Origin: an uncultured Gammaproteobacteria bacterium | GTDB lineage: Bacteria > Pseudomonadota > Gammaproteobacteria > Eutrophobiales > Eutrophobiaceae | NCBI GenBank assembly: GCA_943788815.1 | Contig: CALSRS010000002.1 | Span: 1 to 58,961 of the forward strand | DNA length: 58,961 nucleotides | Reading direction: 5' to 3' | Shown here: positions 3,725 through 22,860 of the stretch, one piece after another | Position numbering within the stretch: position 1 is the first letter of the stretch | Layout of the letters: each line of letters starts with the position of its first letter | Notes under the pieces: model-generated | Told to the model about the DNA's origin: nothing | What the model saw: the letters and a program-made list of their open reading frames with translations, nothing else | Database searches by the model: none | Position numbers and translations under genes: made by a program

Positions 3725-3732
3725 AGGATTAT

Positions 3733-4683: not shown

Positions 4684-4701
4684 CTAAATGCGCTTTCAGG
4701 T

Positions 4702-6153: not shown

Positions 6154-6163
6154 TTAATTCCTT

Positions 6164-7291
6164 CTATTTATTCAGCATTAAATTATACAGGTCAATAGTT
6201 CGCCTATTTATAATATTCACATCGAACTTATTTTCAACCAGTGTCCTACCAGCCTTACCCATCTCGATTCTGCTGGCAGGTGAACATACTAAAGATTCCA
6301 TAGCGTCTGCAAGACTAATTGCGTCCTTTGCGTTCACTATCAATCCATTTATATTATTTGTAACTATATCCCTGCATCCAGGCACATCTGTCGTAACGAT
6401 TGCTCGCCCTACAGACGCTGCTTCAAGTAATGTTTTTGGCAAACCTTCACGATAGGAAGGCAGGCAGACTACATTTGCACTGCAAATCACATTATACATA
6501 TCATCACGGTGCCCCCACCATTCAACAAGCTGATCTTCTAACCAGCTATTTAATTCAGATTTATTAATACTACTTGGATTGCCCTCATCAACGTCTCCCA
6601 CGACAACATAACTAGCACCTGTATTTCTAGTTCTTAATATTTTACATGCCTCTATAAATTCACGAATCCCCTTGTCAACCAGTAAGCGGGAGGCAAACAT
6701 GACAATAGGAGTGTCTGTGGGTACTTCAGGGGTATATTTAAAATGACTGGTATCAACACCAGCCCCCCTTATCAATGAGTATTTTCCAGTCTTAACCAAG
6801 CCTTCATCCATAAGCAAGGTTTCATCATCTTTATTCTGAACGATAGAATAAAACTGTTCACGCTTAAATAGCAAAGATAATAAAGGAGTAATTATTTTCC
6901 TGAATATCAAAGATGACCATGATGAGGATATGAATATATATCCTAAGCCAGTATATGCATTAATCACCCTCGGCACGCCTGCAATCCACGCGCCAATAGA
7001 ACCAAGCAATATCGGTTTCAATGAAATATTATGCACCAGATCCGGTTTATATTTTTTATTAATTTCAACCAACTGCAAGATTGAACTAATTTCTTTTATA
7101 GGATTAGCGACAGATCTGGCCATCGAAATGGGAACCACTTCTATACCAATAGCTGTGATTTTATCCGTGTAATTTCCCGGATTGGTAGCAACAATCACTT
7201 TATAACCTTCTATTAATGTCTGCTCAGCCAACATTTTTCGATGAGACCAGAAATACCAGTCCTCGGTAACTAGATATAAAATACTTTTCAT
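6164..7291 (-). CDS. Glycosyltransferase family 4 (GT-B retaining)
   Basis: 375-residue GT-B enzyme. The N-terminal half resembles the Glyco_trans_4_2-type acceptor domain of O-antigen transferases (LYLVTEDWYFWSHR at the start, then DLVHNISLKPILLG). The C-terminal half has the donor-site E-x7-E motif in EGLPKTLLEA. It probably adds one sugar to the lipid-linked chain on the cytoplasmic face of the inner membrane. Donor and linkage cannot be read from sequence. It is 2 bp downstream of the next glycosyltransferase gene and 10 bp upstream of manC, so the three are probably co-transcribed. Confidence 0.87.
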   Translation of the reverse strand: MKSILYLVTEDWYFWSHRKMLAEQTLIEGYKVIVATNPGNYTDKITAIGIEVVPISMARSVANPIKEISSILQLVEINKKYKPDLVHNISLKPILLGSIGAWIAGVPRVINAYTGLGYIFISSSWSSLIFRKIITPLLSLLFKREQFYSIVQNKDDETLLMDEGLVKTGKYSLIRGAGVDTSHFKYTPEVPTDTPIVMFASRLLVDKGIREFIEACKILRTRNTGASYVVVGDVDEGNPSSINKSELNSWLEDQLVEWWGHRDDMYNVICSANVVCLPSYREGLPKTLLEAASVGRAIVTTDVPGCRDIVTNNINGLIVNAKDAISLADAMESLVCSPASRIEMGKAGRTLVENKFDVNIINRRTIDLYNLMLNK

Positions 7292-7293
7292 TT

Positions 7294-8481
7294 CTATTTT
7301 ACTTCTAAGGAATCAATGAATTTAAACAGTTGAATATAGCCGGATAGACAACTAATGGCAGTAAACTTGGCCTGCACTCTTAATCTTCCATAATCACCAT
7401 ATTCACGTCTTAACAATTCATTTTCAGACAGCCTGAGTATGGCCGAAGCCAATTGTTGGGGGCTATGAGGCTCAACAACCAGTCCAGATTTCTCATGTAT
7501 CACAGCTTCACTGTTTCCACCAACGTTGGTTACAATCATAGGTATAGCTGAGGCCATCCCTTCAAGAATTGCATTGGAAAAACTCTCCTGGTGAGATACC
7601 AGTAAACCGATATCTGATTCTGAATAAATCTCTGCAATATCATTTCTGAGTCCCAGCCAACACACGTGCTCATTGAGTTTGTATTTTGACACCAGAGTGA
7701 GAAGGTCTTTTCTGTTTTCAATACCTGCTCCTGCTACAAGCAGCATCCAGGGTTTTTTCAATGTGTCTTTTATTAATGATAATGCATGTATTAAATCAAT
7801 ATGTCCTTTGTAGGGTATTAAATTTGCAACAATAGTTAATACCAATGTATCTTCATCCAGCTTTAGTTCCTTCCTTATGCTTGAATGTGTATTGCGTACA
7901 TTAAATTCCGGCATAGTTATACCATTGTAAATTAGTCTGGTTTTTTCTGGAGAAACATTTTCTTCATGACATAACTGATCAATTACTGCCTGACTATTCC
8001 CTACAATCATAGTTACATGTTTATGCAACCAGATTTCAAACTTCCTGATTAGATAACGTTCCTGCAGGTAAACATTAAGACTACGCCGGAACATTATTGT
8101 CTTGTTATTATTACCAGCAAGCTTGGCCGAAATCATACCCAGGTAGTATGAAGAAGGCAGGTAGAAACAGATTATATCTACGGGTTCTCGATTAAACCTC
8201 AATGCTAGATAATATATCGTCGCAACCGAACCAGTTAACCTGCTAAGCACAGGTATTCGCTGAAAGAATCTGACAAATTTTGAAGGCTCATAAACAGGGA
8301 TATTTACTTGCTCTAACTGACTCGCCATTTCACCCTTTTGAGTAAGGGTAAGGACAGAAACTTGAAATCCATTTTCAGCTAAAAAAGGTAATAGTCGAAC
8401 CAGGTGAGTTTCGGCGCCACCTATATCCAGACTGCCAATTATAAATCGTATTTTAACAATTTCACTTTTAATGCTTATCAC
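7294..8481 (-). CDS. Glycosyltransferase family 4 (GT-B retaining)
   Basis: 395-residue GT-B enzyme. The N-terminal acceptor domain shows IIGSLDIGGAETHLVRLL, the GGAE/H element typical of GT4 enzymes. The C-terminal domain has SHQESFSNAILEGMASAIP with the E-x7-E donor motif, followed by VGGNSE. The start is a GTG at 8481 without a strong Shine-Dalgarno, so the exact N-terminus is uncertain by a few codons. It lies 22 bp downstream of the glycosyltransferase-methyltransferase fusion and nearly abuts the next GT4 gene. The sugar transferred is unknown. Confidence 0.87.
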   Translation of the reverse strand: MISIKSEIVKIRFIIGSLDIGGAETHLVRLLPFLAENGFQVSVLTLTQKGEMASQLEQVNIPVYEPSKFVRFFQRIPVLSRLTGSVATIYYLALRFNREPVDIICFYLPSSYYLGMISAKLAGNNNKTIMFRRSLNVYLQERYLIRKFEIWLHKHVTMIVGNSQAVIDQLCHEENVSPEKTRLIYNGITMPEFNVRNTHSSIRKELKLDEDTLVLTIVANLIPYKGHIDLIHALSLIKDTLKKPWMLLVAGAGIENRKDLLTLVSKYKLNEHVCWLGLRNDIAEIYSESDIGLLVSHQESFSNAILEGMASAIPMIVTNVGGNSEAVIHEKSGLVVEPHSPQQLASAILRLSENELLRREYGDYGRLRVQAKFTAISCLSGYIQLFKFIDSLEVK

Positions 8482-8503
8482 CCGTTATAAAATATCATTA
8501 GCA

Positions 8504-10981
8504 TTAAAGATGACGTCTAAACAAAAATTCTGTATTTGCTTCACCTGTGACAATTTTCTGCAAATCAAATCCCAAATCTTCGCAATAATTTATAACATCA
8601 TCATCATAAACAAACTCCATTGGCCAACCGCCCAGCCAGTCTCTTATATCCGTCATGAAATTCATACCTCGATCTTTCTTATACTCCCACGCTCTTTTAA
8701 TTACTTTCAATATTTTTAACGGTTGAGATTCCATCATGAATCGCCAGATATACCACAGCTCCATCCATCTTCTCTTTATTACACCAGATGACACATATTT
8801 TTTCTTTATACCAAGCCAGAAATCGGGCCCTGGATCGATTTGAACATCGGCTGAATATAAGGCAATGTAAAATATCCCACCTGGCTTGACTCTACTTGCA
8901 GCATTCTCTATTGCATGCCATACATCACCGGTATGATGTAATACCCCCCATGAATATACAATATCGAATAATGAAAGGTTATTCATATACTCATCATCCA
9001 AAACCGAAGCCTGCTCAAATTCCCAATTAGAATGGTCGTGCCTGATATCTCTTAAGTATTTTGTTGCTTTAATAGAAACGGGGTCATAATCAAAACCATG
9101 TACTTGTGTTGCACCTGCATCCAGGGCAGCAAGTGAGTGCAAACCACTACCACACCCAATATCTAAAAATGTTTTATCCTGCAGATTCTGAAGCTCAAGA
9201 AACTTCAGCAAATGTCCTTTTGATTCATCAAGTATCTCTTCACTGTAATTCGCTTTAATGTACGACTCCCAATTTTTGCCAAATTCAAAACGCCGTCCAT
9301 CATTTTCTTTGATAAGATATTTTTGCGTTGATTCATAAATTTCTTCGATACCTGCAGACATCTTCTCCACTGCGAAGTTATTTTTCGCATGTATTTTCCC
9401 TTCTATGCCTGCCTGTTGAAGCCAGGAATTATCATGAATTAATCGATCTAATAATAAAGCAATCTGGTTTGCATCATAGTTTTCGACCACCCAGCCGGTC
9501 ACCTTGTTTATCAATGTTTCAGGGGCGCCTCCTGCCCTGGTTGTAACAACCGGCACTCCCAGCAATTGAGATTCAATTAGCACATTTGGCAATCCTTCTA
9601 ACCTGGAAGTAAGCAAAAAGATATCCATTGCAGATATATGTTCATATGCGTCATAGGTCCTTCCAACAAAATGTATATGATTATTCATACCACTATTCAC
9701 AACTTTCTGTTTTGCAACATCAAGCAATGGACCATCTCCAACCATCAGGAAATGAATATCTGGATCCAGATCATGAAGTCTTGTTGCTATATCCAGCCAT
9801 AGCATAGGATTTTTTTCTTCAGAAAAACGGATTACAGTACCAATAACTGGACTTGTGTCCGGGATTTCATATTTCGTCTTTAATCTCGAATTGCCTGATA
9901 CATTATTTTCTTTAAATTCATCTGCATTGACATTAAACCCATTATGAATAACCCTGATTGTTTTTTCAGGTAACGCAAGCCATTTCTCATATTCCCTTGC
10001 TCCCGCATGACTATTATTAATCAGGGTTACGCCAGACTGTTTTGCCAGCCAACAGTATGCTTCTCGCATATACGGTTGATGAAAAGCAAAATGGTATGGA
10101 GGAAGACTCCTTAAGCCAAGTATAATCTTTGGAACACCAGCTAAGACCGCAGCTATGCCTCCACTAACACAGACACTATCCAGCCAGAAATGAGCTGTTT
10201 GTGGTGAATTATTTACAGGCATTCCAGCATACAGTGATACTTTATCCCTTAGAGATGTGGGCAATATACTGATCTGAGTTTGAAATAATGTCCTGAGCTC
10301 TTCATCCATGATAAATGATTGACTGTTTATAGTTAATGTCTCGACATTTATTCTTTCAAGTTCACCAATAAAGAACCTATCTGAATCACTGGACAAAAAC
10401 TCACAAAAAACTTTAACATCCTTATTTTTTGCTAATGATGTAACTGTCATTATCAATTGGCGTTCAGAACCGCCTGGCCCAAGGCTGCCTATTGCATGTA
10501 TTATTCCAGAGTATTTTTCATTTAATGTTATTGGACTGAAATACTTATCATACTTATTAAATGCGCGACGATAATGAATATTGGCAACATCAAATAGAGA
10601 ACTAAATATCAGGTTTGCAATCAGCGTTTTAATATTAGGTCTGGATTTATGCTCTGCAAGTAAATGACGGTAATCTAATGAACGATTCCAGAGAATTAGA
10701 TAAATTTTCCTTACTACGATATAAAATATAAAAAATATTCCGAATATCAGACTATCTATCTTAAGCCATAATTTGAGCAGTCTAACACCAAAATATTTTA
10801 CAAAAAAACCTGGCTCGCTACCTTCCCTAACTATAAGTAGCTTATATTTTTGCTGGTAATTGTTTTTTGTTTCATGATATGTACGAACTATTATTTGTAA
10901 AAAAAAGTGGCCATAAGGGTACAGAATATTCCTTACACTATAAGGAATAACATTCCTTATGATTTTTCGAAATCTACTCAT
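8504..10981 (-). CDS. Bifunctional GT4 glycosyltransferase / class I SAM methyltransferase fusion
   Basis: 825-residue fusion. Residues 1-150 include a basic start and one strongly hydrophobic stretch (about 76-98), probably a membrane anchor. A GT-B domain follows, with GSLGPGGSERQL near 164-175 and the donor motif EGLPNVLIES near 460. The C-terminal 230 residues form a class I methyltransferase: motif I reads FLDIGCGSGLHSLA near 605, with a downstream DIVYSWGVLHHTGD segment and KPGG. In Wzm/Wzt systems the non-reducing end is often capped by methylation, which sets chain length and is recognised by the Wzt C-terminal domain. Joining a transferase and a methyltransferase in one chain suits an extend-then-cap enzyme, but that role is inference. 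Single-frame continuity argues against an artefactual fusion. Confidence 0.85.
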   Translation of the reverse strand: MSRFRKIIRNVIPYSVRNILYPYGHFFLQIIVRTYHETKNNYQQKYKLLIVREGSEPGFFVKYFGVRLLKLWLKIDSLIFGIFFIFYIVVRKIYLILWNRSLDYRHLLAEHKSRPNIKTLIANLIFSSLFDVANIHYRRAFNKYDKYFSPITLNEKYSGIIHAIGSLGPGGSERQLIMTVTSLAKNKDVKVFCEFLSSDSDRFFIGELERINVETLTINSQSFIMDEELRTLFQTQISILPTSLRDKVSLYAGMPVNNSPQTAHFWLDSVCVSGGIAAVLAGVPKIILGLRSLPPYHFAFHQPYMREAYCWLAKQSGVTLINNSHAGAREYEKWLALPEKTIRVIHNGFNVNADEFKENNVSGNSRLKTKYEIPDTSPVIGTVIRFSEEKNPMLWLDIATRLHDLDPDIHFLMVGDGPLLDVAKQKVVNSGMNNHIHFVGRTYDAYEHISAMDIFLLTSRLEGLPNVLIESQLLGVPVVTTRAGGAPETLINKVTGWVVENYDANQIALLLDRLIHDNSWLQQAGIEGKIHAKNNFAVEKMSAGIEEIYESTQKYLIKENDGRRFEFGKNWESYIKANYSEEILDESKGHLLKFLELQNLQDKTFLDIGCGSGLHSLAALDAGATQVHGFDYDPVSIKATKYLRDIRHDHSNWEFEQASVLDDEYMNNLSLFDIVYSWGVLHHTGDVWHAIENAASRVKPGGIFYIALYSADVQIDPGPDFWLGIKKKYVSSGVIKRRWMELWYIWRFMMESQPLKILKVIKRAWEYKKDRGMNFMTDIRDWLGGWPMEFVYDDDVINYCEDLGFDLQKIVTGEANTEFLFRRHL

Positions 10982-11048
10982 GCTTTTACCAATAAAATAC
11001 TTATGATCAATTAAATATTAAGCATGAAAGTATCAGATAAAATAGCAA

Positions 11049-11849
11049 TTAATCATTTAAGGTACTATTCCTGCCCAGGTATAGTAAATTCTGTTCTCCA
11101 CCTGTTTTAACCGATATGTTTTGCCTGATTTCATTTAAAAAAGATGGTGACGCTCCGTTTTCACTTTGACTCCACATTTTATCGCCCGGCAAAAAAATAT
11201 GATCGTTGAGTTCCACCTGGTGAGATACTATTTCTTCGATCCCATATTTAGCGAGCAATCCTTTTAATGACTGCTCTGTAAATGATCGAACATGCTGCCA
11301 TCTGTGAAAAAGAAGATTACTCTCTGGACAATACGACATATTCATTTCCAGATCTTCATTATTCGGGGTGGTAACAACAAGCACACCACCTGGTTTCAGT
11401 AAACTTACAATCTGAATCAAGGTCTCGTCTAATTCTTCATCAAGAATATGTTCTATTACTTCAGCCATGATTATCACATCAAAGGTCTCGTCTGAATTTT
11501 TGTCAATTGTCCCTAGAAAATTATCATGCTGATTCAAGTTCTGTTTTATTACTTTTTGACGCTCGTTTGAGTCTTCATAAGCTGCTGTTAAATAACCCCG
11601 CTCACAAAGTAATTTGATCAGATCACCATCACCCGCACCAAAATCCAGTATTCTTCCATCACCAGGTAATTCATGTTCAATTGTAAGGATCAGACTTTTT
11701 CCCACTTGTCTGGAAAATCCAAGATCCAACAACCTGGTATGGGAGAGTCCATCCCAGAATTTCCTGACGAGTTCGGGAGTCCATTTTAATTTTTGTGGCT
11801 TCATATGAATATCACCATAATTCTCACCTGCTTTTATACTATCACTCAT
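11049..11849 (-). CDS. Class I SAM-dependent methyltransferase
   Basis: 266 residues. Motif I is ILDFGAGDGDLIKLL; the acidic motif is followed by FDVIIMAEVIEHI (the VIEH form seen in UbiG/COQ3-type methyltransferases) and by LKPGGVLVVTTPN. It probably methylates a sugar hydroxyl or a terminal group of the polysaccharide. The start ATG overlaps the stop of the TylF-type gene by 4 bp (ATGA), which indicates translational coupling. A 67-bp gap separates it from the fusion gene. The acceptor is unknown. Confidence 0.85.
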   Translation of the reverse strand: MSDSIKAGENYGDIHMKPQKLKWTPELVRKFWDGLSHTRLLDLGFSRQVGKSLILTIEHELPGDGRILDFGAGDGDLIKLLCERGYLTAAYEDSNERQKVIKQNLNQHDNFLGTIDKNSDETFDVIIMAEVIEHILDEELDETLIQIVSLLKPGGVLVVTTPNNEDLEMNMSYCPESNLLFHRWQHVRSFTEQSLKGLLAKYGIEEIVSHQVELNDHIFLPGDKMWSQSENGASPSFLNEIRQNISVKTGGEQNLLYLGRNSTLND

Positions 11850-12733
11850 TTTTTGATTACTAAGCCTTGTCCTGTGGGCAAAGAAACTATTGATTCAGGT
11901 TTGTTTTTAAAATATTCATCAGCTGCAGTCTTTGCTCCGGGACAGGATTTAAACCCATAATCATCCATTAATACTATCCCCTGACTTACCATTCTCGAAT
12001 AAAAATAATTCAATGTTTGGTAAGTCGGCTCATAAAGATCAACATCAATATGTAAAAAACATATTTCATCGCCGGAATAATCTTGAAATACCTTTGGTAT
12101 CCAGCCTTTGTATACTTTGAAGTTTTGGTATTGATTCAGTCCAGCCATTAGAATTTTTTCTGAAGACTGCAATGCACCTTCTACCCAATAATCACCATCT
12201 TTATCACCAGGTTGAGATAGTCCTTCAAATGAATCAAACAAATGGACGGTCTTGTCTGAATCATTAAATGCTTTACACATTAACGATGCGCTGGCACCTT
12301 TATATGCGCCACTTTCTACCAAATCACCTTCAAGGCTAAAAACGAGTTTTAACAACTGGTTTAGAGTAAATTTTCTATCAAGTGAGTGCCAATTTTCTGG
12401 GTCCATGAATTTCTCGTAATATTCAAGAAACTCTCTATCTTCCAGGAATAATTTTCCAAACTCACTGAATTTATATTTAGGATAAACAGCCATGGTAAAT
12501 ATCTCAGCCATCTGAAACCTGACATATTCATTATCAAGGTTATCCTTTTCTCGTAACAACAGAGATTTTATTTTTTTCACATCGTCGGCGGACATTAATT
12601 TAAACAAGTCATTAAGCAAGTCCATATCCGCATCGTCATTATTGTAATTGCTGGAGCCATCACAACCACTAATTGCAAATTGCTCTACGCCGGCAATCCT
12701 GGAGAAAAATTTCCTTAATTCATTCAAAAACAT
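11846..12733 (-). CDS. TylF/MycF-type (macrocin O-) methyltransferase
   Basis: 295 residues with the hallmarks of the TylF/MycF family of metal-dependent sugar O-methyltransferases: GDLVESGAYKGASASLM for SAM binding, HLFDSFEGL, the metal-site segment LHIDVDLYEPTYQTL, then MDDYG and PGAKTAADEYF. Family members methylate deoxysugar hydroxyls in macrolides and are common in polysaccharide loci. It lies 2 bp after wzt and overlaps the following methyltransferase by 4 bp. Two methyltransferase genes directly behind the exporter fit a polymer whose O-methylation is read by Wzt. The N-terminal 80 residues are not part of the recognisable catalytic fold. Confidence 0.88.
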   Translation of the reverse strand: MFLNELRKFFSRIAGVEQFAISGCDGSSNYNNDDADMDLLNDLFKLMSADDVKKIKSLLLREKDNLDNEYVRFQMAEIFTMAVYPKYKFSEFGKLFLEDREFLEYYEKFMDPENWHSLDRKFTLNQLLKLVFSLEGDLVESGAYKGASASLMCKAFNDSDKTVHLFDSFEGLSQPGDKDGDYWVEGALQSSEKILMAGLNQYQNFKVYKGWIPKVFQDYSGDEICFLHIDVDLYEPTYQTLNYFYSRMVSQGIVLMDDYGFKSCPGAKTAADEYFKNKPESIVSLPTGQGLVIKK

Positions 12734-12735
12734 GC

Positions 12736-14028
12736 TTAATTTTTCTCTAAGGTCTGAATGTTAAACTGCGACTGTAAATTCACAACTGAAGTTGTAAATA
12801 TCTTATTCGTACCAGCAACACTGAATCTAATCGCGTCCTCAATAAAATCTATTTTCTCTCCATCTTTATCATGGGCAACACCCAGAGTTATAAAATATTC
12901 TCCCGCTGCCAGCCACATTTTTGCTTTTATAGTGACATTAAACTGTTCACCTGTTTTTGATGTGTATGGATTATCATCATTAGAGATATTAGTCATTCCC
13001 CATAATACTGTCCCGCGCTTATCCTTAATCGCAAAACCGCAGGAAATATCATCTATATCCATTAGCGTGTTCACGTCCATTTCCAGCTTAAAATCTGCCC
13101 CGGACATCATATTGCTCAAAACATTTCCCGCTAGATCATATAAGCCCCAATCCTTTATCTTAGCCTTATTATTTCCATATCGGACATTCTGTTTATTCTG
13201 GATATTTTTATCCGCAGATTCACCATTTATCGAATAGCTTGCGCTCTGAACATTATTTAACTGGCCAGCAGTGATATTATTTTTGATATTTTCACTTCCA
13301 CCAAACAGTAGATTTTGATATTCCTCGGTAATTTTCTTTGGCTCACCTTCAGAATAAATTTGTCCGGATTCTAGGATAACTGCCCTGTCACAAAGGGAAG
13401 TAATTGTATTACTATCATGGGTTACCAACAGAATAGTAGCGTCTTTTTTGCTTAAGTTTCTCATCCAGGAAATACATTTTTTCTGAAATTTTGCATCACC
13501 TACTGACAGGGCCTCATCAACGATTAATATATCCGGCTCAACACTGATAGCAGTGCTAAATGTCAGTCTTGCCTGCATGCCGGTAGAATAAGTTTTAAAA
13601 GGCTGATCAATGACATCATTTAGTTCACTGAAGTTAATTATTTCATGTAACCTGGAATTAACTTCTGCTCGCGTCAACCCCATGCAAAATCCACCCATGA
13701 ATATATTCTCCCTGCCTGTGTACTCAGGATGAAATCCCGTGCCTAACTCCAGAATTGAACTTATCCGCCCATTTACCTCAAGTTCACCACTAGTACTTTC
13801 CAACGTGCCGGCGATTATCTTAAGAAGAGTACTCTTGCCTGCCCCATTCCTCCCCATTATTCCAACTATCTCACCACGTTTAACAGTTAAGTTTATATCT
13901 TCCAATGCCTGCTTACTTATATGCCTGGATTTTTCAAACATCAATTCAAGTAAGGGATCTGCAGGATGCGAAAATATCCTGTATTTCTTTCCCAGATTTA
14001 TTATTCTGATTGCATCATGACCGGTCAT
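12736..14028 (-). CDS. wzt: O-antigen/polysaccharide ABC exporter ATP-binding protein with C-terminal carbohydrate-binding domain
   Basis: 430-residue ATPase of a Wzm/Wzt exporter. Residues 1-240 form the nucleotide-binding domain: Walker A GRNGAGKST (59-67), signature YSTGMQ (147-152) and Walker B ILIVDEA (167-173). From about 250 to 430 a second, beta-rich domain resembles Wzt_C, which in O8/O9a-type systems binds the modified non-reducing terminus of the glycan. Presence of this domain suggests capped-chain recognition rather than a bare ATPase. The start ATG overlaps the wzm stop by one base (TAATG). The methyltransferases that could make the cap follow immediately. Confidence 0.93.
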   Translation of the reverse strand: MTGHDAIRIINLGKKYRIFSHPADPLLELMFEKSRHISKQALEDINLTVKRGEIVGIMGRNGAGKSTLLKIIAGTLESTSGELEVNGRISSILELGTGFHPEYTGRENIFMGGFCMGLTRAEVNSRLHEIINFSELNDVIDQPFKTYSTGMQARLTFSTAISVEPDILIVDEALSVGDAKFQKKCISWMRNLSKKDATILLVTHDSNTITSLCDRAVILESGQIYSEGEPKKITEEYQNLLFGGSENIKNNITAGQLNNVQSASYSINGESADKNIQNKQNVRYGNNKAKIKDWGLYDLAGNVLSNMMSGADFKLEMDVNTLMDIDDISCGFAIKDKRGTVLWGMTNISNDDNPYTSKTGEQFNVTIKAKMWLAAGEYFITLGVAHDKDGEKIDFIEDAIRFSVAGTNKIFTTSVVNLQSQFNIQTLEKN

Positions 14029-14828
14029 TAAAGATTATCCCCAAGTGTACCTTTACTCCGCTCAAAAATATTCAACCCAACGATAAACACCAATACACTC
14101 TCCAGAGGAAAAACCACCCATGCCACTGGATGCTCTATAGAGCCATAAAACAAGAGATCCTGCCAACACCAAACAGCATAACTAAATGGATTAAACACAA
14201 ATATCCATTGTAATATTTCCGGAGTGGCACTTGGGTTATACAATATGGGCTGTGCAAATAAATTGGCCGAGTTAAATACGATAATCAAATCTCTGATATC
14301 TTTAAGAAAGACACCAAAAACTGAAAATATAAATGCAATTCCTACCATTGCAATTACCTGAATTAAGATGAGGACAGGCAAAGCTAAACTAAACAATGAC
14401 AAGTTTCCTTTGAACGTACTAAAACCAATGGCAAAAACCAAGCCGCCTGCATATGGTAATAGACTGGCGATGGCAGTTTTTACTGGCAATACTTCTACTG
14501 GAAATACAATTTGTTTAACCAGGCTAGCATGAGTTAATAGTATTGCTGGTGAACGTGAAAGTATGTCCTGGAATGCTAACCAGCATATTACCCCAGCAAG
14601 AATATTGGTTGAAAAATCTGTCTGGATGCTCCCCAAAGAAAACCTTGCTGGAAAGACATAGGCGAACAGGACCGCATATAAGCTCATAAGTAAGACAGGA
14701 TGCCCGAATGACCAAATCACACCGATCACCTGACCCGTGTGTCGATCTTTCAATTCTCTACGCACTAACTCCATGATTAATTCATGACGAGAAGAGAATA
14801 AATTTATTACCTTAAAAATTAACTTCAT
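14028..14828 (-). CDS. wzm: O-antigen/polysaccharide ABC exporter permease
   Basis: 266-residue ABC-2-type membrane protein with about six hydrophobic segments. The N-terminal MELVRRELKDRHTGQVIG stretch is the amphipathic interfacial region typical of Wzm/TagG/KpsM permeases. It forms the transmembrane channel that passes undecaprenyl-linked polysaccharide to the periplasm, powered by the ATPase encoded next (1-bp overlap). Its start overlaps the stop of the asparagine-synthase-like gene by 4 bp (ATGA). Presence of Wzm/Wzt, and absence of Wzx and Wzy in the window, places the polymer in the ABC-dependent pathway. Confidence 0.92.
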   Translation of the reverse strand: MKLIFKVINLFSSRHELIMELVRRELKDRHTGQVIGVIWSFGHPVLLMSLYAVLFAYVFPARFSLGSIQTDFSTNILAGVICWLAFQDILSRSPAILLTHASLVKQIVFPVEVLPVKTAIASLLPYAGGLVFAIGFSTFKGNLSLFSLALPVLILIQVIAMVGIAFIFSVFGVFLKDIRDLIIVFNSANLFAQPILYNPSATPEILQWIFVFNPFSYAVWCWQDLLFYGSIEHPVAWVVFPLESVLVFIVGLNIFERSKGTLGDNL

Positions 14829-16768
14829 AATGCTACATCTGGATTATTATCAAGCCAGGCTTGAAGCATAAGGACGTTCCATAATGGATAGCCCCAGTTT
14901 TCCCCCTTTAGGTGACGCTGCCATTTATCAATAATTGGGGCAGATTTCAACAAACCTTGCTCATCTAATCGATCTTTATTTAAAAGAGATTCTGCCCAAT
15001 CTTTCAATGGTCCTCGAATCCATTGGTCGAATGGAACGCCGAAACCCATTTTGGGACGATCTATAAGGTGCCTGGGTAGGCGCTTGTACAATAATTGTCT
15101 CAAGGCCCATTTGCCCTGGCCATTTCGTATTTTCATATTGATGGGTAACCCCCATGAAAATTCAACTAGCCTGTGATCCAGGAGTGGCACCCGCGCTTCA
15201 AGAGAAACACTCATACTCGCCCTGTCTACTTTGGTTAATATGTCATCTGGAAGGTAAGTCAACGTATCTAGCAATTGCATACGATCCAGAAAATTAGGAA
15301 AAATTGACTTCATTGAAGGATCCCACAAAAGGCCTTTGTGTTCTTTTGCATCAAGGACCAATTCATCTGGTGGGTCCCAGTGACTAATCATCCTCATATA
15401 CATGGAGTCGGGGTCACTCGTTAGTATAGCGTTTGCATATTTATGAATTTTCATACCCATTTGAGGTCTGCGTAGTGCACTAGGCATGTATTTTGTAACG
15501 TTATCCCACATTGATGTAGAACCACTCAGCAGCAATCTTGCTAATTGTTTTCGAATATAATATGGCGCTATCGTTGCCTGATTCCACATCTTCAATCCGT
15601 CCGTATACCGATTATAACCAGCAAATAATTCATCACCTCCATCGCCTGACAAAACTACGGTGACGTGAGATCGCGTTAATTCGGATAACAATAAGGTCGG
15701 TAGTTGAGATGAATCTGCAAATGGCTCGTCATAAAAAGTAGGGATTTTAGTTATTAATTCAACTGCTTGTTCAGGCTCGGCATATAACTCTGTATGTTTT
15801 GTATTTAAATGCTCAGCAATTAATTTCGCATATTTTGCCTCGTTAAAATCATCATCATTAAATCCAATCGTAAATGTCTGCACTTGGTTATCACACTGCT
15901 CAGTTAACAGTGCTGTCACGAGTGAAGAGTCAATTCCGCCGGACAGTAAAGTGCCTAATGACACATCTGATACCAGACGTCTTCTCACAGAATCTGACAG
16001 GAGCTCATCGAGCTCACTCAACATTTGGTTTTCATCAACATCTGTTCTATTGGAAATATTTTCTGCTGCGATACTTACAAGATCCCAATAACGATTCACT
16101 GTTACATTTCCATCACCTGTTATTTTCAATATCGTTCCAGGCTCAAGTTTGCGAACATCCTCGTAGATAGAAAATGGACTTGGGATATAATTGTGGCGCA
16201 TGAAACTCGATACCGACCCCCTATCTATACGTGCCTGCCACCCGGGTGTTTGACGTAGCGCCTTAAGTTCTGATCCAAATACCAGTTTCTTGTTAAATGA
16301 CCCCCAGTACAATGGTTTTATGCCCAGCCTGTCTCTAACCAGATAAAGGACATGATCTCTTCGATCATATAAGGCAAAGGCGAACATCCCGATAAATTTT
16401 TTCACAGCATTCTCAACACCCCATTGAGCACATGCTTCCAGAACAACCTCCGTGTCAGATCTTCCTTTAACAACCCTGCCTTTACCTGCCAACTCACCAG
16501 CTATTTCAGTATGCGAATAAATCTCACCGTTATAAACAATGACATAACGTTTACATGATGAAATCATAGGTTGCGCACCTGACGGGGAAAGATCTCTAAT
16601 AGCAAGTCGACAATGACCCAAGCCTATCCCTTTCGTTTGATCAAACCAGATATTGCTGGAATCGGGACCACGGTGACTCAACACTTTTGTCATTTTATCT
16701 AATGTCGATTGAAATACGTCCGCATCCCAAACCGGTTCATTTAGAAAAACGCCAGAAAATCCACACAT
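14825..16768 (-). CDS. asnB: Asparagine synthase-like glutamine amidotransferase
   Basis: 647 residues, full length for the class-II glutamine amidotransferase/AsnB family. Cys2 (MCGFSG) is the glutaminase nucleophile; the synthetase domain has the PP-loop LLSGGIDSSLV near residue 270. Although it matches asparagine synthase, its position between rmlB and wzm resembles WbpS of Pseudomonas O-antigen loci, thought to amidate N-acetylgalactosaminuronic acid. The cluster also encodes uronic-acid-forming dehydrogenases, so amidation of a uronic acid carboxylate is plausible. Ordinary asparagine synthesis cannot be excluded from sequence. Confidence 0.9.
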   Translation of the reverse strand: MCGFSGVFLNEPVWDADVFQSTLDKMTKVLSHRGPDSSNIWFDQTKGIGLGHCRLAIRDLSPSGAQPMISSCKRYVIVYNGEIYSHTEIAGELAGKGRVVKGRSDTEVVLEACAQWGVENAVKKFIGMFAFALYDRRDHVLYLVRDRLGIKPLYWGSFNKKLVFGSELKALRQTPGWQARIDRGSVSSFMRHNYIPSPFSIYEDVRKLEPGTILKITGDGNVTVNRYWDLVSIAAENISNRTDVDENQMLSELDELLSDSVRRRLVSDVSLGTLLSGGIDSSLVTALLTEQCDNQVQTFTIGFNDDDFNEAKYAKLIAEHLNTKHTELYAEPEQAVELITKIPTFYDEPFADSSQLPTLLLSELTRSHVTVVLSGDGGDELFAGYNRYTDGLKMWNQATIAPYYIRKQLARLLLSGSTSMWDNVTKYMPSALRRPQMGMKIHKYANAILTSDPDSMYMRMISHWDPPDELVLDAKEHKGLLWDPSMKSIFPNFLDRMQLLDTLTYLPDDILTKVDRASMSVSLEARVPLLDHRLVEFSWGLPINMKIRNGQGKWALRQLLYKRLPRHLIDRPKMGFGVPFDQWIRGPLKDWAESLLNKDRLDEQGLLKSAPIIDKWQRHLKGENWGYPLWNVLMLQAWLDNNPDVAL

Positions 16769-16792
16769 CTATTTATCCATGCCTAAACTCAT

Positions 16793-17890
16793 TTATCTGA
16801 CGTCGTAATTGGCGCTAATCCAATCCTGATAAGAACCGTCTTTGACTGCGCCCACCCATTCATTATTTGACAGGTACCACTCAATGGTCTTTTTTATACC
16901 TGTCTGGAATGATTCTTTTGGCTGCCAAGCCAGATCATTCTCAATTTTCGTCGTATCGATTGCATATCGCTGATCATGCCCAGGTCGGTCCGCCACAAAC
17001 GTAATCAATTCTTCATAACGGCCATTAGATGAAGGTGCCATCTCATCCAGCATCTTACAAATTGTTTTTACCAACTCCAGATTGGTAATTTCATTATCAC
17101 CACCAATATTGTAGGTTTCCCCTGGTGTGCCATTGAGCAATGTAGTGAAGATTGCATCACAATGATCTGAAACATATAACCAGTCGCGGATATTCATACC
17201 ATCGCCATATATGGGTAGAGATTTCCATTCCAGGCAATTGGCGATAACCAGTGGTATCAATTTCTCAGGATATTGATATGGGCCATAATTATTTGAACAA
17301 TTCGTCGTCAACACGGGCAGACCATAGGTGTGATGATATGCTCGAACAAAATGATCAGAAGCTGCTTTAGATGCCGAATACGGGCTGTTTGGCTCGTATA
17401 GTTTTAATTCTGTAAATTTTGGATCATTAATCTCTAATGAGCCATATACCTCATCCGTTGAAACGTGTAAAAAACGAAATTTCTTTTTATTATTTTCCGG
17501 TGTCGTTACCCAGTATCGATAACTTTCATCAAGCAGCCGAAAGGTTCCTACCACATTGGTTTCTACAAAAACTTCTGGACCAGCGATAGAACGATCCACA
17601 TGACTTTCTGCTGCAAAATTAATTACAGCATCGGGTTGGTGTTTTTCAAGTAATCCCTTAACTAATTCCCTGTCACCGATATTTCCTTTAATAAAAATAT
17701 GCCTACGATCATCTTTCAGGCTTGCCAAATTCATCATATTTCCTGAATAAGCTAGCAAATCCAGATTGATAATTTTACCTGGGTATTTCTCTAGCCAGTT
17801 AAGTACAAAATTAGAACCGATAAATCCTGCCCCACCGGTTACTAAGAGAGTCTCATAGATATCCAAATTTTTATTCAAGGTTCTTCTCAC
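16793..17890 (-). CDS. rmlB: dTDP-glucose 4,6-dehydratase
   Basis: 365-residue extended SDR converting dTDP-glucose to dTDP-4-keto-6-deoxyglucose. Motifs are VTGGAGFIGSNFV for NAD binding, HVSTDEVYGSL with the catalytic Thr-Asp-Glu, and YSASKAASDHFVRAYHHTYG with the Tyr/Lys pair, followed by NNYGPYQYPEKLIPL; all are diagnostic of RmlB. The start used is GTG at 17890, overlapping the regulator gene by 20 bp. In-frame TTG codons a few residues later are possible and would remove part of an unusually long N-terminus. No rmlA, rmlC or rmlD is in the window, so the fate of its product is open (rhamnose via genes elsewhere, or another deoxysugar). Confidence 0.93.
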   Translation of the reverse strand: MRRTLNKNLDIYETLLVTGGAGFIGSNFVLNWLEKYPGKIINLDLLAYSGNMMNLASLKDDRRHIFIKGNIGDRELVKGLLEKHQPDAVINFAAESHVDRSIAGPEVFVETNVVGTFRLLDESYRYWVTTPENNKKKFRFLHVSTDEVYGSLEINDPKFTELKLYEPNSPYSASKAASDHFVRAYHHTYGLPVLTTNCSNNYGPYQYPEKLIPLVIANCLEWKSLPIYGDGMNIRDWLYVSDHCDAIFTTLLNGTPGETYNIGGDNEITNLELVKTICKMLDEMAPSSNGRYEELITFVADRPGHDQRYAIDTTKIENDLAWQPKESFQTGIKKTIEWYLSNNEWVGAVKDGSYQDWISANYDVR

Positions 17891-18515
17891 TTAAGTTTTT
17901 GATGCCCAGTATTTCAGGGATAAATATAGTTTTTTCTCCATCCTCAACATTAATATAATCTATCATGGCTTGCGGATTTTTCAGTTCTGTAATTATGCAC
18001 GCATCATATTCGGGATTTTGTATAGGGGATTTCCAAACGGGGTAACCCAAGTGTTCAATTTCAGGGGATTCCCTGTCAATAAATCCTATGATATTAATAT
18101 TGAACTCTCTTGATCTGAGAATAGCAATCTCAGCCAACTCAGAGATTCCGCATAAAATAATACTGTGAATATTTTGATTTACACATTTTTGAAAAACTTC
18201 ACTACACGATGTACTTGCTCGGCGATAGAAACCAAATGAGATGCTTAGGTATTCAGCCGTCAACCTGCTCTTCTCTGTAAAACCTTTGGGCGTCAAATAA
18301 TAGAGATACCTGTTTGCAGGGGCCTGCTCGATTTTTACCAGACCTTTTGTTACACAGCGCTTAAGGTAGGAATTGGCCAAGCCTAATGCGACACCCAGCC
18401 GGTCTGCCAGGTGACGCTGGGTGAGATTACTTTGCTTATCTATCGCCTGAAGTAGGCTTAATGTAAGGGAATCTTCCTTGCTGTCCGTGTTCATAATATG
18501 AACAAGATACATCAT
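17871..18515 (-). CDS. Winged-helix (MarR-like, EPS-associated) regulator with C-terminal Rossmann-like domain
   Basis: About 215 residues. Residues 10-85 form a winged helix-turn-helix (LTQRHLADRLGVALGLANSYLKRCVTKGLV, then a YLYYLTPKGFTEKSRL wing) much like the MarR-family EPS-associated regulators found in polysaccharide loci. The C-terminal half reads IILCGISELAEIAIL and GFIDRES, recalling the nucleotide-sugar-binding Rossmann segment of CapD/PglD-type proteins, so it may sense a sugar-nucleotide or nucleotide. Several starts are possible: a TTG at 18524 inside the palindrome, ATGs at 18515 and 18512, or ATG at 18494, which best fits the family N-terminus. I used the first ATG. Likely autoregulated through the adjacent palindrome. 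Confidence 0.8.
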   Translation of the reverse strand: MMYLVHIMNTDSKEDSLTLSLLQAIDKQSNLTQRHLADRLGVALGLANSYLKRCVTKGLVKIEQAPANRYLYYLTPKGFTEKSRLTAEYLSISFGFYRRASTSCSEVFQKCVNQNIHSIILCGISELAEIAILRSREFNINIIGFIDRESPEIEHLGYPVWKSPIQNPEYDACIITELKNPQAMIDYINVEDGEKTIFIPEILGIKNLSEKNLE

Positions 18516-18517
18516 TC

Positions 18518-18534
18518 TGTTCAATCTCTGAACA
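18518..18534. promoter_or_regulatory. Candidate operator: perfect 17-bp palindrome at start of the winged-helix regulator gene
   Basis: TGTTCA-ATCTC-TGAACA: two perfect 6-bp arms around a 5-bp spacer. It lies just upstream of the regulator ATG at 18515 and just downstream of a candidate promoter, where a bound repressor would block initiation. Size and symmetry suit a dimeric winged-helix protein. Function is inferred from position. Confidence 0.5.
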
Positions 18535-18547
18535 CGAACGCATAAAA

Positions 18548-18574
18548 ATTATAATTAAAGTTGTATTTTCACAA
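18548..18574 (-). promoter_or_regulatory. Candidate sigma-70 promoter inside the polysaccharide cluster
   Basis: On the minus strand a perfect -10 TATAAT (18548-18553) lies in the AT-rich 83-bp gap between cysC and the regulator. The best -35 match is TTGTGA (18569-18574) with a short 15-bp spacer, so the -35 is weak. It would drive the regulator, rmlB and the export genes separately from the UDP-uronate genes upstream. Confidence 0.4.
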
Positions 18575-18598
18575 TAATATCTATTAGTTACTGAGTTA

Positions 18599-19222
18599 TT
18601 AATTGATTTCCTGTTCGAATTTCTTATGCGTTTTCAGATATTCGATTACCTGATGGGCGCAATCCTCTATGCTGGATTCCCCCGTGTTAAGTACGATTTC
18701 AGGGTTATCTGGCTCTTCGTATGGGGAACTGATACCTGTGAACTCTGGTATTTCCCCTGCCCTGGCCTTTTTATAGAGTCCTTTTGGGTCTCGTTCCTCA
18801 CAAATGTCCAGGGTGGTCTGACAATAAATCTCGATAAACTCACCGTCTTCCACCAAATCACGAACGATCTGCCTGTCTTTTTTAAAGGGTGATATAAAAG
18901 CAGTCAAGGTGATGACACCTGCCTGAGTAAGAAGATTACTTACCTCGCCAATTCTACGAATATTTTCAGTCCTATCCTCATCCGAAAAGCCCAGGTCCTT
19001 ACACAGGCCTTTTCTGACATTGTCTCCATCCAACACGAATGTGCGTATATTTTGTTTATGGAGTGTGTCTTCTACTGCATGGGCAAGGGTTGATTTTCCT
19101 GAGCCAGAAAGACCGGTAAACCAAAGTATACAACTTCGATGGCCATTCATTCTTTCTCGATCTTTACGATAGACGGTGGGTTCGTGCCAAACAGTATTTT
19201 CATTTGTAATTTTATTATTCAT
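18599..19222 (-). CDS. cysC: Adenylylsulfate (APS) kinase
   Basis: Phosphorylates adenylylsulfate to PAPS. The 207-residue form has Walker [30 protein letters not shown] for APS binding, RIGEVSNLL, the lid segment AFISPFKKDR and, further on, the DPKGLYKKARAGEIPEFTGI loop, all CysC signatures. I chose ATG at 19222, which follows AGGAA and gives the usual WHEPTVYRKDRERMNGH N-terminus. A TTG at 19261 would overlap ugd by 20 bp. No cysD, cysN or cysH is nearby, so it stands apart from sulfate assimilation genes. Within a polysaccharide operon it may supply PAPS for glycan sulfation, though no sulfotransferase is visible in the window. Confidence 0.93.
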   Translation of the reverse strand: MNNKITNENTVWHEPTVYRKDRERMNGHRSCILWFTGLSGSGKSTLAHAVEDTLHKQNIRTFVLDGDNVRKGLCKDLGFSDEDRTENIRRIGEVSNLLTQAGVITLTAFISPFKKDRQIVRDLVEDGEFIEIYCQTTLDICEERDPKGLYKKARAGEIPEFTGISSPYEEPDNPEIVLNTGESSIEDCAHQVIEYLKTHKKFEQEIN

Positions 19223-19241
19223 TATACGGCTGTTCCTATTT

Positions 19242-20555
19242 TTATAAGGTTGGTCTTCCAATGCAAAAGTAATTATATCCTTTTTCTTTCATCAAGACAG
19301 GTTCATAGATATTTCTGAGATCGATAAATACATTTGTGTTCATCATTTTTTTTATTTCATCGAGATCAAGTCCGCGGTATTCATTCCATTCTGTTAAAAT
19401 CAACACTGCATCTGAGCCTTTGAATATGTCATAAAGGTTTTCATAGAAATCGATATTCTCTGACAGTACTTTTTTGGCCTCCTCCATTCCATGAGGATCA
19501 TGGGCACGTATTTTTGCACCTTGCTCGATTAATTTAGGAATAATCGAGATTGATGGTGCATCACGCATGTCATCCGTATCTGGCTTGAATGTCAGGCCAA
19601 GGACAGATATCACCTTTCCAGAGAGTTCATCATCTAATGCCAGGCTAATCTTTTTGAACATTCTGGCTTTTTGCGCCTCATTCACTTCAACTACAGATTC
19701 TACAATACGGCTAGTCACACCTGATTCTTGTGCGATCCTGACTAATGCCTTGGTATCTTTGGGAAAACAAGAGCCCCCATAGCCTGGGCTAACGTGAAGA
19801 AATTTTTTACCTATTCGACCATCCAGCCCCATCCCTTTAGATACGGCATGCACATCGGCACCGACAGCTTCACACAACATGGACATTTCATTAATGAAAC
19901 TGATTTTTGTTGCTAAAAATGCGTTGCTCGCATATTTGATCAGTTCGGCACTTTCAAGGTCTGTTAATATGATTGGCGTCTCAATCAAATTTAAAGGTCT
20001 GTAAAGTTCTTTTAATACACCGAGCGCCTGTTCTGATTCCCCGCCAATAACAACACGATCAGGGCGCATAAAATCTGATATTGCAGCACCTTCACGAAGA
20101 AACTCAGGATTGGATGCCACATCAAAATTGGCATTAGGATTTTCTGCTTCAATTATTCGTTTTACGTTCCTTGCCGTTCCCACCGGCACAGTTGATTTGT
20201 TAACCACTACCGTGTATCCCTTGAGATGTGACGCAATGTCTTTGGCCGCCTGAAAGACATAAGATAAATCGGCATGGCCATCACCACGTCGAGAGGGCGT
20301 GCCAACTGCAATAAAAACCAAATCACTCTCACCTACGATCTCGCCGTATTCATTGGTGAAATTTAATTTTCCATTATCCAAATTTGATCTGACAAGCTCT
20401 TCCAGACCAGGCTCATATATTGGAATTTTTCCATTATTTAGTAAATCGATCTTTTGTTTATCCGTGTCGATACATGTCACTTGTGCACCAAATTCAGCAA
20501 AACACGTGCCGGATACCAGTCCTACGTAGCCACTTCCGATTATTACGACTTTCAT
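19242..20555 (-). CDS. ugd: UDP-glucose 6-dehydrogenase
   Basis: 437 residues, the normal length. It oxidises UDP-glucose twice with NAD+ to UDP-glucuronate. The N-terminus MKVVIIGSGYVGLVSGTCFAE is the NAD-binding motif; GVPS-like GTPS and the catalytic-Cys segment GYGGSCFPKDTKAL (Cys near residue 260) are present. Its substrate comes from GalU at the other end of the cluster, and its product feeds the UDP-glucuronate 4-epimerase gene two positions upstream. It sits 14 bp downstream of the TviB-like gene; cysC follows 19 bp after its stop. Confidence 0.96.
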   Translation of the reverse strand: MKVVIIGSGYVGLVSGTCFAEFGAQVTCIDTDKQKIDLLNNGKIPIYEPGLEELVRSNLDNGKLNFTNEYGEIVGESDLVFIAVGTPSRRGDGHADLSYVFQAAKDIASHLKGYTVVVNKSTVPVGTARNVKRIIEAENPNANFDVASNPEFLREGAAISDFMRPDRVVIGGESEQALGVLKELYRPLNLIETPIILTDLESAELIKYASNAFLATKISFINEMSMLCEAVGADVHAVSKGMGLDGRIGKKFLHVSPGYGGSCFPKDTKALVRIAQESGVTSRIVESVVEVNEAQKARMFKKISLALDDELSGKVISVLGLTFKPDTDDMRDAPSISIIPKLIEQGAKIRAHDPHGMEEAKKVLSENIDFYENLYDIFKGSDAVLILTEWNEYRGLDLDEIKKMMNTNVFIDLRNIYEPVLMKEKGYNYFCIGRPTL

Positions 20556-20569
20556 AGTTATTCCTTAGC

Positions 20570-21859
20570 TTACAATCTGACTAATTTAATGTTTCCAGGT
20601 ATAGCTGACCTGTCCAGAATTCTTTGTACATCTATCACCACACCCATATTTTGATTTAGCAATGGGGCTATACCTCCCCATCCTTGCTCTTCAAACTCTG
20701 TATGCGCAACTGCCAACACAGAGACATCTGAGGGTACTAATGCCTGCTTCTCTAATAGATGTATCCCATATCTCTCATGTATATCTTCTTTACTGGCAAA
20801 TGGGTCATAGACCTGAACGCGGACACCTTCATCTTGAAGAAATTGTACAATATCAATGTTTTTTGAATTTCTAACATCAGGTACATTTTCCTTAAATGTA
20901 ATACCCAGGACCGTTACGATACTATCGCTGATATCGATGTCATTTTCTGTCAGGTTTTTTATCACCAGGCGAGAAATATATTCAGCCATACCATCATTGA
21001 TTCGCCTTCCTGCCAATATTACTTCTGGTGCATAACCAATGCTTTCAGCCTTATATGTCAGGTAATAAGGATCGACCCCAATACAATGCCCACCGACTAA
21101 TCCGGGCTTAAATGGCAAAAAGTTCCACTTTGTTGCTGCAGCCTCTAAAACATCCCCTGTATCAATATCCATTTTATCGAAGATCACTGCCAATTCATTC
21201 ATTAATGCGATATTCAAATCACGTTGAGTATTCTCGATAATCTTTGAAGCTTCGGCTACTTTTATTGACGCTGCCTTAAAGACACCTGCTGTTATGACTG
21301 CCCCATATACTTCAGCAATAATGTCCAAGGTTTGGGTTTGCTGGGCAGAAACTACTTTTTTAATAGTAGCAAAACTGTGGTCTTTATCCCCTGGATTAAT
21401 CCGTTCAGGCGAGTATCCTACTTGAAAATCCGTCCCTGCAATTAGTCCAGATTCACTTTCAAGCACAGGAATGCATTCCTCCTCAGTGGCGCCTGGATAG
21501 ACAGTTGACTCATAAACCACAATATCTCCTTTTGAAATCACTGCCCCCAACAAACTCGTTGCATGCATCAGCAAGGATAAATCAGGACGCTTGCTCTCAT
21601 CCACTGGGGTGGGTACTGCGACGATATAAAAGTCAGCTTCGGTAAGTTTTTGAATATTTGATGTGAATTCAATATCAGTATCAGTTAACTCATGACTTGA
21701 AACCTCCAGCGTCTCATCGATACCTTGATTTAATTTTGATATTCTCGTTTCATTGATATCGAACCCAATCACTTTTCCAAACTTTGAAAATGCGACAGCA
21801 ACAGGCAAGCCTACATACCCAAGCCCCATAACGGCAATTTTTCTATTGTGGGGGATCAT
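20570..21859 (-). CDS. tviB: UDP-N-acetylhexosamine 6-dehydrogenase, TviB/WbpO family
   Basis: 429-residue nucleotide-sugar dehydrogenase. The N-terminus [20 protein letters not shown] is the NAD site; [13 protein letters not shown] and [19 protein letters not shown] are typical of the Vi-antigen TviB/VipA and WbpO group. The catalytic Cys lies in [13 protein letters not shown] near 258. Family members oxidise UDP-GlcNAc or UDP-GalNAc to the matching N-acetylhexosaminuronic acid; which one cannot be decided here. It overlaps the upstream epimerase gene by 4 bp. A TviC/WbpP epimerase partner is not obvious, since the neighbouring epimerase looks specific for UDP-glucuronate. Confidence 0.92.
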
Positions 21860-22860
21860 TTATAATAATCTACATACCAATTGATGAAATTTTTAACTCC
21901 AATTTCTATTGGCGTATTGGGTGAAAAATTCATATCTTTAATTAAATCATCCACATCTGCATACGTTGCAGGCACATCCCCTGCTTGCATAGGCAGAAAA
22001 TTTTTCTTGGCTTTTTTACCTATACATTCTTCAATGACTTCTATAAATCTGAGTAATTCTACGGGATTATTATTGCCTATATTGTATAACCTGTATGGTG
22101 CAAGACTTGTTCCTGGGTCAGGATTTTGTCCGTCCCAGTCAGCCTCAGGCGCAGCAATTTTATCAACCACGTTCACTACGCCACTTACGATATCATCTAT
22201 ATAGGTAAAATCACGACTATGATGACCATTGTTAAATACGTCTATCGCTTCATCATTCATTATTTTCTTTGTAAATAAAAATAATGACATATCAGGTCTT
22301 CCCCAGGGGCCATAAACGGTAAAAAATCTAAGCCCTGTCGTTGGCAGCTTGTACAAATGACTATAGGAATGTGCCATCAATTCATTTGATTTTTTTGTCG
22401 CGCCGTATAATGAACATGGATGATCGACATTATGCTGAGTAGAAAATGGCATTTGTGTGTTCGCCCCATAGACTGAACTGGACGATGCATAGACCAGATG
22501 CTCTACAACATTGTGACGACATGCTTCAAGAATATTTAGAAAACCCTCTATATTGGACTTGATATAAGCATGTGGATTTTCTAATGAATATCTAACACCC
22601 GCCTGGGCGGCAAGGTGAATTACTCGCTGTGGTTTCTCATCTTCAAATATCTGAGTGCAGATATTATTATCGGTAATGTCCGATTTAATAAACGTAAAAT
22701 TACTACTACCTTCCAGATTCGTTAACCTGGCCTTTTTTAAATTCACATCATAATAATCATTGAGATTATCCATGCCTATGACGCTATCACCCCGTTTCAA
22801 CAACGAAGTGCATACTGCGGCACCAATAAAACCCGCAGCACCTGTTACGAGTATTTTCAC
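21856..22860 (-). CDS. UDP-glucuronate 4-epimerase (extended SDR)
   Basis: 334-residue epimerase interconverting UDP-GlcA and UDP-GalA. It shows [13 protein letters not shown] (NAD site), [16 protein letters not shown], a hallmark of the UDP-glucuronate epimerase subgroup (Cap1J/LpsL), [11 protein letters not shown], the YxxxK pair in [11 protein letters not shown] and [14 protein letters not shown]. The start is GTG at 22860 preceded by GGAAA. It is the first gene of the minus-strand cluster; the 190 bp before it contain the tRNA-operon terminator and no clear strong promoter. Together with Ugd it implies galacturonic acid or glucuronic acid in the polymer. Confidence 0.93.

Follow-up and report, generated by a model that had tools for sequence, protein, structure and literature searches.

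The window (the whole stretch of 58,961 nucleotides that was analysed) carried a gene for a winged-helix regulator with a C-terminal Rossmann-like domain, and two perfect copies of the palindrome TGTTCA-N5-TGAACA were found at the front of this gene, on promoter-like sequence and on the start codon. The best reading of the locus, and a probable one on the sequence evidence, is a locus-dedicated autorepressor that would shut its own operon by promoter occlusion. The regulator is a relative of the MarR_EPS family with a putative Rossmann sensor and a composite of promoter, operator and start codon. The MarR_EPS family is named in passing in PMC10599003 and PMC8007912, and among openly accessible papers the literature search turned up no work on the regulator or its operator. 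These results equip the regulator family with a specific operator, a map of the promoter and a prediction of how it acts, which can be tested by simple assays, and the way in which surface-polysaccharide operons sense precursor pools becomes directly testable.

The regulator and its domains

The regulator gene was located on the minus strand at 17871–18494 and encoded 207 aa. Its ATG at 18494 was assigned from the open reading frame, the HMM matches and the same start and operator in relatives; the longest frame (217 aa, from a TTG at 18524) was dropped in favour of this conserved ATG. The original prediction had given the regulator a span of 17871–18574; the regulator was present there, with the gene itself covering 17871–18494 and the promoter and operator block lying above it. 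The regulator copies at loci L028, L029 and L030/L182 looked frame-shifted, perhaps by assembly errors.

The predicted MarR-like winged helix was confirmed. The DNA-binding domain (residues 7–87; 18234–18476, minus strand) matched the MarR_EPS model TIGR04176 over residues 7–87 (E 4.1e-18), HTH_24 (1.5e-8) and MarR_2 (27.5 bits; cut-off 27), and by Pfam the protein qualified for the MarR superfamily, with MarR_2 above its cut-off. MarR_2 was also matched at E ≤ 0.1 by 25 of the 25 proteins of the regulator alignment. The protein thus shared with MarR_EPS a homologous winged helix and a setting in polysaccharide clusters; unlike MarR_EPS, it had an additional Rossmann domain, some 100 aa long, and its TIGR04176 score of 65.4 bits missed the cut-off of 88 bits.

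The full-length AlphaFold2 model had a pLDDT of 78.9, and its winged-helix part was of low confidence, with block values of only about 48–79. Analysis of the model by DSSP showed a long linker helix (residues 75–106; 18177–18272, minus strand). The Rossmann-like C-terminal domain (residues 109–200; 17895–18170, minus strand), a putative sensor, was assigned from the AlphaFold2, VIA and hhalign results, and this part of the prediction held: residues 88–200 folded alone gave a pLDDT of 93.9 and a pTM of 0.88.

VIA comparison of the C-terminal domain gave, as its closest credible folds, SucD-type CoA-binding domains, Rex and WbaP at Z of about 9–10 (rmsd 2.5–3.4). Periplasmic binding proteins, which stood in the top rows (Z about 10–11.7, 5–12% identity), were taken as a generic arrangement. 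Foldseek with the C-terminal domain alone returned nothing below 0.001; with the whole model, the only match below 0.001 was the O-methyltransferase 8bif (E 7.9e-4, TM 0.32), which was not taken as a relative. A search of PDB sequences with the regulator gave nothing significant (best E 0.058).

Rex has the same layout, with a winged helix followed by a Rossmann domain. The match to Rex held domain by domain only (VIA Z 8.8–9.6, rmsd 2.5–2.7), the whole-chain superposition having an rmsd of about 15, and neither NCBIfam at E 0.1 nor Pfam at E 1 gave the window regulator a match to the Rex family or to CoA_binding. NAD binders such as Rex carry a GxGxxG loop; unlike Rex, the window regulator has the loop GISELAE, without this glycine pattern. 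The operator site of Rex also differs from TGTTCA-N5-TGAACA. By these tests the window regulator is not a Rex, being Rex-like in layout.

Profile comparison by hhalign with the N-terminal Rossmann domain of CapD, the CapD of the same cluster included, gave 86% over 59 columns (E 4.8e-6, from one alignment of 19 and one of 4 sequences), against 0.1% for the control of the winged helix with CapD. The domain concerned in CapD/PglF and WbaP is CoA_binding_3 (PF13727), which was found in the cluster's own CapD, and WbaP (8t53) superposed with Z 9.1 and rmsd 3.0 over 89 residues. These proteins are enzymes, whereas the window protein is a regulator in which Pfam found no direct PF13727 match at E 1. 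NeuD gave a weak match (12%, with 3 NeuD sequences), and TIGR03570 was matched at E ≤ 0.1 by 5 of the 25 regulator-family proteins (best 0.021); these profile matches leave a NeuD-type sensor a weak candidate. For the likeness to sugar-nucleotide-binding modules proposed originally, the profile match to CapD was thus moderate and that to NeuD weak. Sensing of a sugar nucleotide by the Rossmann domain is plausible from these comparisons, and the sensing of precursor supply in the original prediction is a candidate function.

Paired palindromes, predicted promoter and start codon

The original prediction had described one perfect palindrome TGTTCA-N5-TGAACA; the exact pattern occurred in two copies, neither assigned to a strand. 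Operator O1 (18488–18504) contained the ATG start codon, and operator O2 (18518–18534), 30 bp upstream of O1, lay over the predicted -35 position. The genome scan for this pattern that had been proposed as a check covered the own genome (3,229,922 bases in 3 contigs) and found 3 exact copies, 2 of them at the regulator. The third was on another contig, beside recF and inside a 733-aa frame that read as gyrB by eye, and was taken as chance. With one mismatch allowed, the relaxed pattern YGTTCAN5TGAACR had 30 sites in the genome and its reversed control 24, and so the exact pair, rather than the relaxed sites, is the signal.

Between the two operators a predicted -10 box, TATCTT (4/6), was located at 18504–18509 on the minus strand, where many relatives had TATAC or TATAG followed by T. 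The corresponding -35 position, TTCAGA (4/6, weak; 18527–18532, minus strand), was placed from aligned relatives and fell inside O2. By this comparison the window carries a degenerate copy of the predicted conserved promoter.

Conservation of the site was examined in 48 fused loci, the window itself included. Duplicates on the same contigs (L034, L035, L036 and L038, on the contigs of L005, L006, L010 and L019) and short or weak matches (L031–L033) had been removed from this set, and the near-identical pairs L049/L050 and L052/L053 were counted in it. An exact YGTTCAN5TGAACR site was present within 170 bp upstream in 40 of the 48 loci, the window among them, and at least two sites, with one mismatch allowed, in 33. 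In 22 of these 33 the last two sites were 29–31 bp apart (overall range 15–36 bp). A site lay on the start codon in 27 of the 48 loci, again with the window. The 8 loci without a near site were L021, L024, L045, L049, L050, L052, L053 and L054; L045 had no upstream sequence, L021 and L024 had a site further up, and no operator site was found in L049/L050, L052/L053 and L054.

A second set of 23 gammaproteobacterial homologues contained one locus seen before (L136, identical with L037) and 22 new ones. The exact site was found within 60 bp upstream in 18 of the 22, and on the start codon in 16 of those. In the other 4 it lay some 0.6 kb upstream, in front of an RfaH-like gene standing immediately before the regulator; where the operon starts earlier, the operator thus stands at the operon front. 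Over the rest of the 23 loci (71,272 positions) only 4 exact sites were found, and they were those of the 4 loci without a near site.

Off-locus sites were counted in 42 chosen genomes, 27 of the 30 with a regulator match and 15 of the 66 without. The 27 genomes with the gene had 49 exact YGTTCAN5TGAACR sites (control pattern 9), and 44 of the 49 were no further than 1.3 kb from the regulator; among the 15 genomes that lack the gene, 6 exact sites were counted against 7 for the control. Off-locus exact sites were thus at background level, for which reason a wide regulon was rejected, and the distribution points to control of one locus, not of a regulon. Extra exact copies in the same cluster were seen at L025, where the distance upstream to the regulator was about 1.3 kb, and at L024, where two lay ahead of the RfaH-like gene; they possibly mark a second controlled promoter.

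The MarR_EPS family was sampled by its best 30 loci, which comprised 19 short and 11 long frames. Among these best 30 loci, the short proteins, which were above the family cut-off, shared the exact operator site in 12 of 19 cases and had no exact site in the remaining 7, and the 11 long frames, fusions to sulfate adenylyltransferase-type frames, had the operator in 0 of 11.

In the second set the order of elements was TTGAC, a spacer of 17–18 bp and TATAGT. The palindrome opens with the T that closes the -10 box, and the start codon follows 10 bases after that T. Among the 16 start-codon cases of this set, counted without L136, the -35 box had 5/6 at 17–18 bp in 12 and the -10 box had 5/6 in 13. 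Alignment of 27 relatives on the start-codon palindrome showed a TATA box immediately before it; these relatives had been picked for carrying the site there, so that the column statistics are not independent. A transcription start 6–8 bases past the -10 box would leave a leader of a few bases at most, and in many gammaproteobacterial relatives the mRNA is probably leaderless.

The composite TATASTGTTCANNNNRTGAACR, a pattern partly learned from genomes that were afterwards searched, was matched 22 times when 369 genomes of the class were searched, and its reversed control 0 times. All 22 matches opened a regulator homologue (blastp E 8.7e-15 or better), and the composite is thus specific enough to find such switches from sequence alone. 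An automatic residue check passed 15 of the 22, and blastp settled all of them; the match of L182 covered 45 residues only, its frame breaking after 46 codons. The genes began with ATG in 18 cases and GTG in 4, and a Shine-Dalgarno-like word at -20 to -4 was found in 0 of 22. The 22 genomes were all among the 37 genomes of the class that carry the gene; the composite was missing from the remaining 15, of which the genome of the window is one.

In alphaproteobacterial loci the sites lay 37–165 bp upstream of the start. Where at least two were present, a palindrome started inside TTGA|CGTTCA in 10 of 10 loci, and the next palindrome came directly after TAT or TATA in 5 of the 10 (L040, L043, L047, L051 and L056).

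Predicted mode of action and alternative readings

In the autorepressor model, the winged helix would bind the inverted repeat YGTTCA-N5-TGAACR as a dimer. O1, whose first base is also the final base of the predicted -10 box, would cover the predicted transcription start and the ATG, and O2 would cover the -35 position of the regulator's promoter. The bound regulator would exclude RNA polymerase and keep both the regulator and the polysaccharide assembly and export genes low. In many gammaproteobacterial relatives a -10 box so near the start codon would give a leaderless mRNA and leave no space in which a Shine-Dalgarno sequence could fit. Repression would be released or strengthened by a ligand of the Rossmann domain, and this ligand is probably a nucleotide or nucleotide-linked precursor.

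The most likely alternative concerns the window species, in which a promoter above the palindromes may be used, with the operators acting as a roadblock and an mRNA that is not leaderless; we regard it as possible though not probable. The TATAAT box named in the original prediction was exact at 18548–18553 (minus strand), whereas the conserved -10 is degenerate in the window, and a scan of 17800–18700 reported as its only promoter-like match a third site, TTAATA-17-TATTAT (18574–18602, minus strand). If TATAAT or the TATTAT at 18574–18579 is the real -10, the leader could be about 45–75 nt. However, TATAAT was not conserved, since only 6 of the 48 loci (the window among them) had it in the 100 bp upstream, and its -35, TTGTGA with a 15-bp spacer, was poor by eye. 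The scan reported neither TATAAT nor the TATCTT between the palindromes, and its single match was below the mean of 3.1 in shuffled sequences. Such a roadblock is compatible with autorepression, and the regulation would be the same in kind.

That the regulator is an activator or a dual regulator of the operon is unlikely. Ligand-dependent winged-helix proteins can activate, and O2 is close to the -35 position. The usual place for an activator, however, is upstream of the -35 box, while the most conserved site here reaches from where the -10 box ends to the start codon, which it includes, and the alphaproteobacterial site starts inside the -35 box.

It is still less likely that some other, unrelated transcription factor binds the palindromes. 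The site accompanies the gene through numerous families whose neighbouring genes differ, does not exceed background in the 15 searched genomes without the gene, and is shared by the short MarR_EPS relatives of the sample of best 30 loci. Least likely of all, and very improbable, are RNA hairpins that hide the start codon in autogenous translational control: the TGTTCA of O1 could pair with the TGAACA around the ATG, and the absence of Shine-Dalgarno-like words from the composite cases would suit this, but O2 is upstream of the predicted transcript start, and the alphaproteobacterial sites lie well ahead of the start codon, inside promoter-like sequence.

Gene cluster, presumed controlled genes and candidate signals

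The polysaccharide-cluster setting of the regulator was confirmed by its neighbours RmlB, ApsK, CapD and glycosyltransferases. The downstream genes (844–17890, minus strand), co-directional frames with a widest gap of 67 bp, are presumed to be co-transcribed; the rmlB frame overlapped the regulator frame by 20 bp. They included RmlB, AsnB, Wzm, Wzt, methyltransferases, glycosyltransferases, ManC, an SDR, a WecA-like protein and CapD, of which RmlB, CapD and the glycosyltransferase-methyltransferase were named by HMM and the others by reading the frames. The upstream half (18599–22860, minus strand) consisted of ApsK, identified by HMM, and of Ugd, a TviB-like protein and a UDP-uronate epimerase-like protein, read from the frames. 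The gap of 104 bp before the regulator was the widest between 844 and 22860, the next widest being 67 bp.

The original prediction held that the export half is switched apart from the UDP-uronate half. The two operators, the predicted promoter and the 104-bp gap at its head support a separate switch, and control of the assembly and export half would fit these features. Within 1.5 kb of the regulator in 49 gammaproteobacterial loci, ApsK was upstream in 14 and Ugd in 15, and neither was downstream; no exact palindrome was found before the UDP-uronate half in the own genome. Against a strict separation, some relatives had uronate-type genes behind the regulator: L052/L053 had Ugd, L039 and, with the same type, L133 and L139 had an epimerase-like gene, and L142, L144, L147 and L151 had TviB-like genes. 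The stretch from apsK to the regulator showed no terminator, so that read-through is possible and the halves need not be fully separate.

In 25 of the 49 gammaproteobacterial loci the regulator had an RfaH-like antiterminator gene as its immediate upstream neighbour, including L024, L135, L140, L145 and L147 (TIGR01955 over its cut-off for L145 and L024; tblastn for L135, L140 and L147). RfaH-type antiterminators of polysaccharide operons are thus frequent neighbours of the regulator and a different protein, and the arrangement suggests a regulator pair. No RfaH was found at the window locus, and the own genome had one NusG-family gene only, on another contig.

Among the best 30 MarR_EPS loci, the winged helix was also seen on the N-terminus of frames of about 690–700 aa (L090–L100, all in family f102 of the phylum sample). 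The frame of L095, when scanned, was a sulfate adenylyltransferase/APS kinase, and that of L090 read alike; it is unusual for an enzyme of sulfate activation to carry a DNA-binding domain. Because the same winged helix occurs in these sulfate-activation fusions and ApsK is the upstream neighbour of the regulator, PAPS is an alternative candidate signal. We tentatively propose, as a broader reading that is somewhat less probable than even, a widespread undescribed switch in which a 22-bp unit of -10 box, operator and start codon, a leaderless mRNA and a winged-helix–Rossmann sensor of a polysaccharide-related nucleotide (nucleotide sugar or PAPS) would gate a polysaccharide operon, often beside RfaH.

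The adenylyl-sulfate kinase (18599–19261, by HMM) lay inside the uronate half and hints that the polysaccharide is sulfated; inspection of the cluster by eye revealed no recognisable sulfotransferase. Further downstream of the regulator, an 825-aa protein (8504–10981) joined glycosyltransferase and methyltransferase domains.
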